DNA of 12,526 nt from a bacterium (GTDB lineage: Bacteria; AUK180): assembly GCA_030622125.1 (NCBI GenBank), contig JAUXGM010000060.1, forward strand, positions 1 to 12,526. Direction: 5' to 3'. A program made the translations under genes and the position numbers. Shown here piece after piece: positions 9,247 to 12,526 of this stretch (its first letter is position 1; each line of letters starts with the position of its first letter). The notes below the pieces were generated by a model. It searched no databases and was not told the DNA's origin. It worked only from the letters and a program-made list of their open reading frames with translations.

Positions 9247-9275
9247 TTGACTTTTGTTTCAATTTAGTTTATAAT
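9247..9275 (+). promoter_or_regulatory. Promoter of the TIGR04255-X-PIN operon
   Basis: The -35 TTGACT (9247-9252) and -10 TATAAT (9270-9275) are 17 bp apart and match consensus at 11 of 12 positions. The expected transcript starts near 9282, leaving about 17 nt with AAGGA (9289-9293) before the ATG at 9299. It stands back to back with the pil-lig promoter; the two -35 boxes are only 15 bp apart, so the promoters may interfere or share a regulator. Confidence 0.75.
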
Positions 9276-9298
9276 CAAATATAATAAGAAGGATAGAT

Positions 9299-10066
9299 AT
9301 GAAAAACAAAAAACTGAAAAATCCACCTTTATTAGAAGCAATTTTTGAGCTTAAATGGGAATTGAAAAAGAAAACTAAAAATTTAATCAAACCTAATTAT
9401 CAAATTTTGCCTGGAATGCTCTACGATAAATTAAAAGATAAATATCCTGAATATGAAGAACTCCCTGCTAATAAAATTCCATCGGAAATTGCTCCTTATA
9501 TTATTCAACACAGATTTAGGCAATCTCAAAATCAATGGCCACTATTCCAGCTCGGCTCAGGCATTTTAACTTTTAATGATACAAAACAATATACATGGAA
9601 TAGTTTCAAAGATAACATCTCATATTTACTTGAAAATTTTTACGATTTGTATCCCGAAAAGGATAAATTAATTGTCAATAGTTTATTGTTACAATATATG
9701 AACGGAATTCCAATTGATAAAATAAAAAATAACAGTTTTGATTTTTTACATAAAAAAATGGGTATTAATATTGAATTGAAAAAAGAATTATTCGATAATT
9801 CGGGAATAAATTCAAATCCATTAGCGTTTGATTATAAATTTGTTTTCTTAGTAAATGAACCGGAGGGTGCTTTGCATTTGAGATTATCCTTGGGAAAAAT
9901 AAAAAATATAGAAAATTTAATATGGGAACATAAATTTATCAGCCAAAATATTAAACTAATAAATTCGCCGGAAAATATATTAAAATGGTTGGAAAAATCT
10001 CATAATATTTTAGAAAAATGGTTTTTAGAATTAACAAAAGGTGATCTATATAGGAGTTTCCTATGA
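9299..10066 (+). CDS. TIGR04255 family protein, first gene of a PIN-toxin operon
   Basis: The 255-residue protein shows features I associate with the sporadically distributed TIGR04255 family: an N-terminal NPPLLEAIFELKWEL (8-22), WPLFQLGSGILTFND (80-94) followed by the aromatic YTWNSFKDNI, a hydrophobic strand VNSLLLQYMNGIPID, and a C-terminal helix ending FLELTKGDLYRSFL. No catalytic signature, signal peptide or membrane segment is visible, so it is probably cytoplasmic. The family's biochemical function is unknown to me. AAGGA lies 5 nt before the ATG. Its stop codon overlaps the start of the next gene in an ATGA, and the whole unit has its own promoter. The gene is strongly AT-rich and scattered in distribution as a family, which fits a mobile defence or addiction cargo. 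A role as antitoxin, sensor or third component is inference. Confidence 0.8.
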   Translation: MKNKKLKNPPLLEAIFELKWELKKKTKNLIKPNYQILPGMLYDKLKDKYPEYEELPANKIPSEIAPYIIQHRFRQSQNQWPLFQLGSGILTFNDTKQYTWNSFKDNISYLLENFYDLYPEKDKLIVNSLLLQYMNGIPIDKIKNNSFDFLHKKMGINIELKKELFDNSGINSNPLAFDYKFVFLVNEPEGALHLRLSLGKIKNIENLIWEHKFISQNIKLINSPENILKWLEKSHNILEKWFLELTKGDLYRSFL

Positions 10067-10515
10067 ATAGTTCAGTAATAAACACTTATATTTATGAAAA
10101 TAATAGTTCTGTTTTATTAAGCAAAAACCAATTTCCGAAATTTTTATCTAATTTTAGTAAATTCATATTCGAAAGTAATAGTGTGAATATAGATTACATG
10201 TCCCCAGATTTAGATGAAAAAAACAGTATACTTACTAATTTTGCAAATAAGGCTAACTTACTTAATATTTTAGAAAACTTATTACAAGAAGAGCTTTTCA
10301 AAGATATTAATAAAGAAAAATGTAAAGAAAATGTCATTAATCTTATAGAAACTGAAACAAACGGAAACTATAATTTTTTGGATTTTTCAACAATTAAAGA
10401 ACGTTTAAGAAAAGTTTTAGCAGTAGAATTACTAAGTGGTTTAACCGCTGATTTTAGTAAAGAAGAAAGAAAGAAATTTAATAAGGCAATAAAACGACGA
10501 CCTTTATTTAAATGA
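10063..10515 (+). CDS. Unrecognised 150-aa protein, candidate antitoxin
   Basis: I do not recognise this protein. It begins MNSSVINTYIYENNSS, has a helical leucine-rich middle (NLLNILENLLQEELF at about 64-78), and ends in a compact helical segment AVELLSGLTADFSKEERKKF followed by a basic tail NKAIKRRPLFK. The last ~35 residues look like a defined motif, possibly the piece that docks on a partner. There is no membrane segment or obvious DNA-binding fold. It overlaps both neighbours by 4 nt (ATGA at 10063 and at 10512), so its production is coupled to both. Its place directly before a VapC-like toxin is where the antitoxin normally sits, which is the main ground for the suggestion. It is somewhat longer than usual VapB antitoxins and lacks a recognisable AbrB, RHH or Phd domain. 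Confidence 0.72.
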   Translation: MNSSVINTYIYENNSSVLLSKNQFPKFLSNFSKFIFESNSVNIDYMSPDLDEKNSILTNFANKANLLNILENLLQEELFKDINKEKCKENVINLIETETNGNYNFLDFSTIKERLRKVLAVELLSGLTADFSKEERKKFNKAIKRRPLFK

Positions 10516-10931
10516 AATATCTTCTTGATACAAATATTATCTCAGAGATAATGAATAATCCTCGAAATAAATCTAAGGTAACTGGAATATACCAGAAAAA
10601 ACTTATAAGAGGTGATGATATTTATATAAATGGTATTACATATTATGAAATAAAGAGAGGATTACTTTATCGGAAAGCAAAAAGAAAAATTAAAGCATTT
10701 GAAATAATATGTTCAATATTAGAATTAATATTTCTTGAAAAAAAAGAAGTATTTGATGCAGCAGCTGAAATTTATATAGAATTAAAAAGGAAAGGTAAAT
10801 TTAAAAAAGATAATGATGCCGACATTTTGATTGCAGCCACTGCATTAGTTGACGATTTAACTTTAGTTACAGATAATGAAAAAGATTTTATGTATATAAA
10901 TAAACTAAAATGGGAAAACTGGAAGAAATAA
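10512..10931 (+). CDS. PIN-domain ribonuclease, VapC-like toxin
   Basis: This 139-residue single-domain protein starts MKYLLDTNIISEIM, the first PIN strand with catalytic D6. The other acidic residues are in place: E46 in ITYYEIKRG, D104 in NDADILIAATAL, and D121/D125 in LVTDNEKDF. This set binds Mg2+ for RNA cleavage in VapC/FitB enzymes, which usually cut tRNA or rRNA when free of antitoxin. The length is normal and nothing is missing, so it is probably active. The start overlaps the preceding stop in an ATGA. The last 27 nt overlap the 3' end of the convergent large gene. A partner antitoxin of known type is not seen; the 150-aa upstream product is the candidate. Confidence 0.9.
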   Translation: MKYLLDTNIISEIMNNPRNKSKVTGIYQKKLIRGDDIYINGITYYEIKRGLLYRKAKRKIKAFEIICSILELIFLEKKEVFDAAAEIYIELKRKGKFKKDNDADILIAATALVDDLTLVTDNEKDFMYINKLKWENWKK

Positions 10932-12526
10932 TGTATGCAGTTTTTTGTTTTCCATCATCAACCAATCAAGCCCAATCCTCACCTCTCTTGTATCCGCTGA
11001 TTTTATCTTTCTTACCTGATTTATCGCTTTTATGGTTTCAAGTATCGCCTTCTCATAATCTTCTTCCGTAACTATCGGATCTGGTATCCTTTCTATACAT
11101 TTTATTGCATTTAATACAAAATGGTTTTCCTTTTCATCAACATTCAGATTATCAAGCATCTCTATAATATCGGATTTCAGGGTTTCGGGATCATACAAAA
11201 TTGTTTCGGTAAACTCAAAGGGTTCTTCCTCCCACCAGATACCATTTGCAAGATATGAGACATTTGTTATAAAGGTAAAATTATTTCCTGTCTCCGGAAG
11301 TTTGGCAAATACATAGTAATTTTTTGTCTCCTCTTTTAATATAAGAGCATTCCAGTTTGCAATATTTGAGTCTATCTCGCCTGCGGGAATTATTTTTAAT
11401 ATTTCGCTACCTTCCGGCAATACCTCTTCAATCCTTGTATTAAGGTCAAAGACATTGGATTTCACAGATACCTTCAGGGTTACATATCCCTTTGGGGCTA
11501 CATTTTCCTCTTCCGGTTTCACATATTCAATAGCATTAGATAAAATATCTTCTGAATTTTCAAGTGATTTTAATAAATCATAAGCAAAGTAAACCGCCTT
11601 CCCATTTCCGTAACTATTTCCAACAATAACAGGAGTGGAACCAACCGGAGTTCCTTGAACTCCGTTAGAGGCTGGAGGTTGGAGGTTAAAGGTTAGTCCA
11701 ATACCGTCATTCAGAGCAGTCTCTCCGTCTGTCATTCTGAGGGACGAAGTCCCGAAGAATCCAGCATTTGTATTCTCTTTTCCGTCAATTTGAAGTTTGG
11801 AGTTTGAAGTTTCCCTTTCTTCTGGTAACTGGTGACTGGTGACTGGTGACCTGGTGACCTTTGCATTTTCTTTCAACCTTTCAACCTTTGAACCTTTGAA
11901 CCTTTGAACTGTTTTTGCAATCACAAACCCACCCTCAAACAATCCATAAGAATCAATCCTATAGATTATACCCAATGTATTTAAGATACCTGCTGTCGTT
12001 ATCGGTGAATCAATAAGATTTACCGTAAGGTTCTCTTCATCATATCTGCCATGATAACGGATACCAAAAACCTCGGGCTCATTACCTTCACCGAGAAAAT
12101 GATAGTAATGTGAAGTAATAAGTCCTTTCCCCGAATAGACCTGTTCCCTTAATTCTTCTGATGTATGTCCTTCAAGATGTTTATCATTTCCAAGTATTAT
12201 ATACTCGTTATAGAGTCCGCTTCTCATGCCCGACACAAATTCACTGCTGCTTTCAACAATATCATAAAGCATAATGTTTTGAGAAACGAAAAATGAGGTT
12301 AATGGTTTGTAGTTTGAAGTTTGGGGTTTAGAGTTTGAAGTTTCTTCAGTCCTCACCTTGTACCTCGCACTCTGTACTTCTTTCTCTTCTCCTTGAATTT
12401 TTAGTTTTTCACTAACCTCCAGCCTCGAACCTCTAACCTCTGTTTTTGTGTTTACCCATACCAGTATCCTCGGCATTATAGAAACTTCCGCTGTTATATC
12501 ATACGCCTTAACGAGTTCAACATCAA
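10905..12526 (-). CDS. Large putative exported protein, 3' part, with repeat-derived insertions
   Basis: The frame stays open from the stop at 10905 through to the right edge (upstream codons read VELVKAYDITAEVSI before MPRILVWVN), so the true start lies outside the window and the Met at 12476 is not the start. Residues below count from that Met. Residues 63-188 and 281-302 look like two halves of a ThuA/GATase-like alpha/beta domain (GLYNEYIILGN, KGLITSHYYHFLGEG, NSYGNGKAVYFAYDLL). Residues 328-428 resemble an Ig-like/DUF11-type beta-sandwich (YVTLKVSVKSNVFDLNTRIE). Residues 430-495 are a helical segment. Two repeat-made blocks (about 13-61 and 190-280) interrupt the first domain in frame. 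The mix of domains suggests an extracellular protein; no enzyme activity is assigned. The 3' end overlaps the PIN gene by 27 nt. Confidence 0.75.
   Translation of the reverse strand, partial: DVELVKAYDITAEVSIMPRILVWVNTKTEVRGSRLEVSEKLKIQGEEKEVQSARYKVRTEETSNSKPQTSNYKPLTSFFVSQNIMLYDIVESSSEFVSGMRSGLYNEYIILGNDKHLEGHTSEELREQVYSGKGLITSHYYHFLGEGNEPEVFGIRYHGRYDEENLTVNLIDSPITTAGILNTLGIIYRIDSYGLFEGGFVIAKTVQRFKGSKVERLKENAKVTRSPVTSHQLPEERETSNSKLQIDGKENTNAGFFGTSSLRMTDGETALNDGIGLTFNLQPPASNGVQGTPVGSTPVIVGNSYGNGKAVYFAYDLLKSLENSEDILSNAIEYVKPEEENVAPKGYVTLKVSVKSNVFDLNTRIEEVLPEGSEILKIIPAGEIDSNIANWNALILKEETKNYYVFAKLPETGNNFTFITNVSYLANGIWWEEEPFEFTETILYDPETLKSDIIEMLDNLNVDEKENHFVLNAIKCIERIPDPIVTEEDYEKAILETIKAINQVRKIKSADTREVRIGLDWLMMENKKLHTLFLPVFPF
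11647..11663. repeat. Short palindrome in block B
   Basis: GGAGTTC (11647-11653) and GAACTCC (11657-11663) are perfect inverted arms around CTT. The outer pair 11646/11664 also matches. It encodes the NGVQGTPV part of the inserted peptide. Confidence 0.7.
11664..11697. repeat. GGAGGTT-type repeat, copy 1
   Basis: The plus strand holds GAGGCTGGAGGTT followed by GGAGGTT and AAAGGTT. The 13-mer GAGGCTGGAGGTT occurs again, inverted, at about 12415-12427, in block A, about 0.75 kb away. Confidence 0.65.
11734..11760. repeat. Hairpin repeat of the TCATTCTGA/GAAGAATCC type
   Basis: A symmetrical 27-nt hairpin: ATTCT and AGAAT outer arms, opposed GA/GA dinucleotides, GGGAC/GTCCC inner arms and a GAA loop. 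The sequence type is familiar as a widespread small intergenic repeat in bacterial genomes (from memory). Here it is translated as GFFGTSSLRMTD. Confidence 0.75.
11822..11857. repeat. Tandem heptamer CTGGTGA
   Basis: CTGGTAA (11822-11828) is followed by three perfect CTGGTGA units (11829-11849), one extra C, then another CTGGTGA (11851-11857). The unit length is not a multiple of three, so loss or gain of one unit would shift the reading frame. Confidence 0.85.
11874..11909. repeat. Tandem octamer (C/G)AACCTTT
   Basis: Two CAACCTTT units (11874-11889) and two GAACCTTT units (11890-11905) stand head to tail, followed by a partial GAAC. On the coding strand they give VQRFKGSKVERLK. The octameric period is not a multiple of three. 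Confidence 0.85.
12296..12440. repeat. Composite repeat block A inside the large coding sequence
   Basis: About 145 bp near the right edge translate to a low-complexity peptide (EVRGSRLEVSEK, EVQSARYKVRTE, ETSNSKPQTSNYKPLTS) between MPRILVWVN and SQNIMLYDIVE, which otherwise look like consecutive parts of one domain. It contains two GAAGTTT-type units (12311-12344) and GAGGCTGGAGGTT inverted at about 12415-12427. The exact 14-mer GAGTTTGAAGTTTC occurs both here (12331-12344) and in block B (11800-11813), in the same reading frame. Confidence 0.7.

Follow-up and report, generated by a model that had tools for sequence, protein, structure and literature searches.

Does a TIGR04255 family gene that precedes an unrecognised gene and a PIN-domain gene form a single functional unit with them, and if so what does it contribute? 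The question is raised by a run of three + strand genes in the window, by which we mean the whole 12,526-nucleotide stretch of DNA that was analysed. The first gene encodes a TIGR04255 family protein of 255 aa (9299..10066), the second a proposed antitoxin of 150 aa (10063..10515), and the third a PIN-domain (VapC-like) ribonuclease of 139 aa, the proposed toxin (10512..10931). They are joined pairwise by 4-nt ATGA overlaps and lie behind one near-consensus promoter. This sigma-70-like site, TTGACT-17-TATAAT (9247..9275, +), is supported by consensus matching only, with 11/12 matches. It is the top-scoring of the 17 promoter-like sites in the region; overall such sites are not enriched (17 vs 14.3 in shuffles). 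A Shine-Dalgarno-like AGAAGGA (9287..9293, +) was read from the sequence with the ATG 5 nt downstream. The original prediction had described the promoter, the overlaps and the TIGR04255, unassigned and PIN genes, and all of these held when examined by ORF coordinates and family scores. The same gene order was found again in unrelated organisms.

The third gene scores 48 bits against PF01850 (cut-off 23.6). It falls below the cut-offs of the NCBIfam VapC equivalogs NF047863 (63.6 vs 140 bits) and NF047959 (40.4 vs 80). Residues D6, E46, D102 and D104 are invariant in an alignment of eight PIN proteins. The acidic set originally proposed was D6, E46, D104 and D121/D125; the first three held, D102 was added, and D121/D125 failed, being not invariant. 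In PIN relatives that lack TIGR04255, the overlapping upstream place is mostly taken by a small VapB-type gene, in many cases AbrB-like by eye, and a Nostoc plasmid pair is annotated as antitoxin family plus VapC. The PIN protein is likely to be a VapC-like RNase toxin, an inference from sequence alone without toxicity data. The genome of the window (2.08 Mb, 192 contigs) has a single TIGR04255 match and a single PF01850 match, both in this operon, and their adjacency is therefore not explained by an abundance of PIN genes.

The 150-aa middle protein matched no Pfam, NCBIfam, PADLOC or PHROG family above cut-off, and no N-terminal DNA-binding domain was recognised in it using Pfam, NCBIfam and PADLOC. 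Its structural model has low confidence. Residues 1-53 score below 50 and are predicted to be disordered; helices are predicted at 49-74, 84-99, 108-129 and 133-144. The gene has a VapB-like layout: it is small, lies immediately before the PIN gene and overlaps it, and ends in a conserved C-terminal tail. The protein is a probable antitoxin because it occupies the place of the VapB-type genes in the PIN relatives; the assignment draws on a family alignment, the low-confidence model, and comparison of position and tail with VapB genes. The tail covers residues 118-150, ...KEERKKFNKAIKRRPLFK (10414..10512, +), and is the best-kept part in all seven homologues. The stretch ERKKF...KRRPLFK had been picked out as conserved, and it is indeed the most conserved part of the protein.

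The intact trio, including the ...KRRPLFK tail, was found in six other contigs, both bacterial and archaeal. These belong to a Methanocaldococcaceae archaeon (L089), Atribacteria (L095), an unclassified bacterium (L098), Aminicenantes (L099), Altarchaeum (L101) and Argoarchaeum (L109). A further copy is decayed (L138). The middle proteins of the six relatives are 130-182 aa long with the same tail, and are only 23-28% identical overall to that of the window, conservation being concentrated in the last ~35 residues. Their PIN proteins (133-139 aa) are 45-51% identical to the window's. Had TIGR04255 seldom been found beside the 150-aa family or a PIN gene, the original prediction would have been refuted; the co-occurrence check was run and did not give that outcome. 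The middle family was found in 2/376 genomes (G000 and G204), both carriers of TIGR04255. The middle-PIN piece of G204 lies at a contig end, as does a fragment of TIGR04255, and it is possible, judging from these positions, that they are one split module. The first and third proteins of L098, a bacterium, and L101, an archaeon, are 83-86% identical. This closeness could reflect recent inter-domain transfer, or mis-binning or contamination of metagenome-assembled genomes. Between these two loci dN/dS is 0.16-0.35 across the three genes, which indicates purifying selection on all three.

TIGR04255 is sporadic, occurring in 50/386 diverse genomes and 0/14 controls. At these loci it almost invariably opens a short operon whose second gene is small and variable and whose third gene is variable as well; the few loci without clear followers include L056 and L074. 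In this wider set, Pfam confirmed third genes encoding PIN (L039, L044, L080), HEPN (L058) and DUF7689 (L062) proteins, and at L047 the second gene encodes SocA/Panacea. The remaining third genes are uncharacterised, or similar to confirmed ones by eye. HicA- or PemK-like third genes guessed by eye at L054 and L069 had no Pfam match. Uncharacterised gene pairs of two more kinds also recur behind TIGR04255 (L064, L043, L049, L077, L048, L050), one of 'NWDGYG...EPDG' plus 'HANIxGWP', the other with 'NWLEFL' proteins.

The window's own subfamily was scanned against GTDB genomes, which yielded 55 named loci in bacteria and archaea. The resulting clade contains 55 loci, counting the window and omitting the partial L139. 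TIGR04255 almost always heads a three-gene operon in it, with gaps of mostly -1, -8 or -4 between TIGR04255 and the middle gene and mostly -4 or -11 between the middle and third genes. Third genes were typed by similarity to six seeds. QGD accounts for 32, PIN for 9, PemK/MazF for 5, HEPN for 3 and NWL for 1; 5 are untyped, 2 of which stop at a contig edge. Pfam confirmed PemK (L111, L086), HEPN (L129) and PIN (L091, L101), and gene order and these three family identities are regarded as shown. With third genes of unknown function at 32/55 loci, the label 'toxin' is backed by family for PIN, PemK and HEPN only, and even there it is inferred from sequence alone. The commonest third gene (32/55, L085-L135) encodes an uncharacterised 'QGD...SxSCD/TQDCD...' protein, a candidate new toxin family. 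One 'QGD...S/TxxCD' member matches phrog_4575, of unknown function.

BLASTP alignments between middle proteins from operons with different toxins fall almost entirely in the N-terminal 75-95 residues. Those of L111 (PemK/MazF) and L117 (QGD) are 64% identical over residues 1-76 (E 3e-31); nucleotide identity of the two genes is 76% and then drops to 23% past the shared part, while their TIGR04255 proteins are 84% identical. Across 593 different-toxin pairs, similarity of the middle N-terminus tracks TIGR04255 similarity (rho 0.50, with 0/300 permutations as high), whereas that of the C-terminus does not (0.07, 42/300). C-termini resemble each other more within a toxin type than between types (0.21 vs 0.09). 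A profile of the HEPN-partner C-terminal domain, built from other TIGR04255 clades, matched just the three HEPN middle proteins of the window's clade. Thus the middle proteins of the relatives are shown by covariation to be chimeric, with an N-terminus that follows TIGR04255 and a C-terminus that follows the toxin.

Some caution is needed here. The 85-residue N-terminal stretch was picked after the BLAST pattern was known, and related loci are not independent. The evidence is also weak for the window's own protein, whose N-terminus has diverged (17% identity to the top sequence of the module alignment) and matches the N-terminal-module profile only weakly (E 2e-4), with the window itself in the alignment. 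Searched against 376 genomes, this profile recovered the TIGR04255-linked copies already known, largely self-matches, and one weak match with a stop codon. No strong free-standing copy of the module was found away from TIGR04255 in these genomes.

Toxin type was mapped onto a tree of 52 TIGR04255 proteins. It requires 14 changes, compared with a shuffled mean of 15.4 (22/200 as low), which means that within the clade the descent of TIGR04255 says almost nothing about the toxin. The tree has modest support, and the window sits on a long branch of unsure placement. The analysis here goes beyond the original prediction: PIN is only one member of an exchangeable set of toxins, the shared component being TIGR04255.

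Phages and plasmids were also searched. The 150-aa protein has no relative among the viral contigs or plasmids, and the window's TIGR04255 protein gave no plasmid or phage match by tblastn. A sister TIGR04255 protein used as query matched five phage records and one plasmid. In three phage records (VW-6S, SNW-1 and Dobby), among five hits in all, TIGR04255 is followed by two small genes. The VW-6S module sits between the CI repressor and the integrase, and the SNW-1 gene is already annotated as TIGR04255. In VW-6S and Dobby the larger follower is similar by eye to the 'SCD' family of L082. Comparison of the PemK tail with plasmid pairs gave one plasmid match only.

What kind of protein is TIGR04255? 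The window's copy scores 109.5 bits against the NCBIfam model (cut-off 30), covering positions 1-251 of 252. No paper naming TIGR04255 was found in the open-access literature searched; a prior description is not excluded, subscription papers and supplements being outside the scope of that search. The AlphaFold2 model (pLDDT 86.9) is alpha+beta with long strands and has no evident HTH or RHH element. The profile matched no solved structure by sequence at E <= 10, and Foldseek found no solved structure below 1e-3. Eight predicted viral structures matched with E below 1e-3, the best at 2e-7 (TM 0.57 by target); the top three are nameless. The best VIA rows were guanido kinases (Z 8.5 over 181 residues), a likeness that was discounted as background, such a Z being expected when an arrangement is common. 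The succession of helices and strands in the model hinted at an internal duplication, which was unsupported when profiles of the two halves were compared. Among 50 members the most conserved positions are mainly aromatic or hydrophobic, without an invariant polar set, and the window carries Q where 88% have R. We infer from this pattern that conservation resembles that of a binding scaffold more than that of an enzyme.

A relationship to SecB was considered and was not detected by sequence profile. An hhalign comparison of 52 TIGR04255 with 8 SecB-like proteins gave a probability of 0.2%, and PF02556 had no match in the window's genome. SecB is also absent from the listed fold-comparison rows, which by itself excludes nothing. 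As a separate observation, weak SecB-family matches were seen in genomes of diverse bacteria (L178-L184), possibly SecB-like chaperones of other systems.

Taken together, we lean modestly towards reading the three genes as a tripartite toxin-antitoxin module, with the middle protein as a bridge between the toxin and TIGR04255. The tripartite reading was part of the original prediction and is supported; toxicity, neutralisation and binding remain inferred. In this proposal the 150-aa antitoxin would neutralise the PIN toxin through its C-terminal helices and the ...KRRPLFK tail, and would have a TIGR04255-specific N-terminal segment in place of a recognised DNA-binding domain. Pairing of this segment with TIGR04255 is shown by covariation in the relatives; physical binding is an inference. 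TIGR04255 would bind the segment and keep the antitoxin folded or stable. Were TIGR04255 lost, titrated or misdirected, for example during phage infection or stress, the antitoxin would fail and the toxin would be freed. Recombination inside the antitoxin gene would swap a 'tail + toxin' cassette, producing TIGR04255 modules with PIN, PemK/MazF, HEPN and other effectors. Such exchange would be possible because the two interfaces occupy separate halves of the antitoxin. TIGR04255 may be a stabiliser or chaperone, or it may be a sensor; a preference for stabiliser over sensor, repressor or enzyme is not shown.

Four other readings were weighed. The one with the most left to it, though still unlikely, is that TIGR04255 is a phage or stress sensor that holds the antitoxin-toxin complex inactive until a viral protein triggers abortive infection, the module being a defence system first. 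The sporadic distribution noted above is in its favor, as are the modules in temperate phages, including the one next to a CI repressor, and the frequent swapping of toxins. Toxin swapping is common in defence modules. Against it, none of the three proteins matched a PADLOC model of a known anti-phage system, no defence island is shown on the 12.5-kb contig beyond an AbiE pair, and sensing is inferred, going beyond the sequence evidence. The suggestion that TIGR04255 senses phage infection was in the original prediction and is neither supported nor excluded, although such modules do occur in phages. It is less likely again that TIGR04255 is a dedicated operon repressor, like omega, replacing the DNA-binding domain missing from the antitoxin. 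Its first place in the operon would fit, and so would a middle protein in which, in contrast to the VapB genes of related PINs, no DNA-binding domain is recognised. The alpha+beta model without evident HTH or RHH does not fit, and covariation with the antitoxin N-terminus is not required of a repressor.

The remaining two readings can hardly be sustained. An ordinary VapBC pair, merely co-transcribed with TIGR04255, is suggested by the VapC-like PIN protein and its sub-threshold NF047863 match. This is contradicted by the trio turning up again in archaea and across unrelated phyla, by the pair of genes that follows almost every TIGR04255 in the clade, and by covariation of TIGR04255 with the antitoxin N-terminus. 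That TIGR04255 is an enzyme modifying antitoxin or toxin is favored only by the guanido kinase rows, and is opposed by their background score and by the conservation pattern, including the window's Q in place of R.

The bridging module that we prefer can be compared with known systems. In TAC systems a SecB-like chaperone binds a C-terminal extension of the antitoxin, and the chaperone-extension pair is transferable between TA families (PMC5105189). The present module likewise consists of three genes, one of whose products is proposed to bind an extra segment of the antitoxin, and this pair too is combinable with different toxin families. Unlike in TAC, the partner is TIGR04255, which has no detectable relation to SecB and is encoded first, the extra segment is N-terminal, and the toxins seen are PIN, PemK and HEPN. 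The module may work like TAC by analogy, but it does not qualify as a SecB-type TAC. It shares with type II VapBC a PIN toxin with conserved acidic residues and a small, overlapping upstream antitoxin with a basic tail, and differs in its longer antitoxin, in the lack of a recognised DNA-binding domain in that protein, and in the presence of TIGR04255 alongside. In the Panacea (PanAT) network, too, a single protein family combines with many toxin domains (PMC8832971, PMC10440598). The promiscuous domain of that network is the antitoxin itself, whereas the common protein here is a third component. The omega-epsilon-zeta system is a three-gene module whose separate first gene encodes neither toxin nor antitoxin, omega being a ribbon-helix-helix repressor. 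It resembles the present operon in having an extra first gene, but no ribbon-helix-helix element is found in the TIGR04255 model.

A bolder reading is that TIGR04255 is a toxin-agnostic hub, a non-SecB family of chaperones or sensors. In bacteria, archaea and phages alike it would define a whole class of tripartite modules for toxin-antitoxin or defence functions, in which the antitoxin N-terminus belongs to the hub and the tail to the exchangeable toxin. We could argue this joint claim as readily against as for. If it is true, the uncharacterised third genes would be new toxin families, and a widespread family known only as 'TIGR04255 family protein' would gain a function. 'Chaperone addiction' of toxins would have a second route besides SecB, and toxin exchange in TA systems a natural test bed, with the crossover point readable inside the antitoxin gene.

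Two other features of the window were recorded. An AbiEii/AbiEi pair (379-1952, -) with a 4-nt overlap was identified by PADLOC (E 1e-97 and 2e-87). It is a second, ordinary TA-like module of the contig, a type IV toxin-antitoxin. On the opposite strand to the operon, a 523-aa ORF without known function (10905-12476, -) shares 27 nt with the 3' end of the PIN gene. It contains repeat-like stretches, for example near 11850-11920 and 12290-12450, that resemble inserted short repeats.
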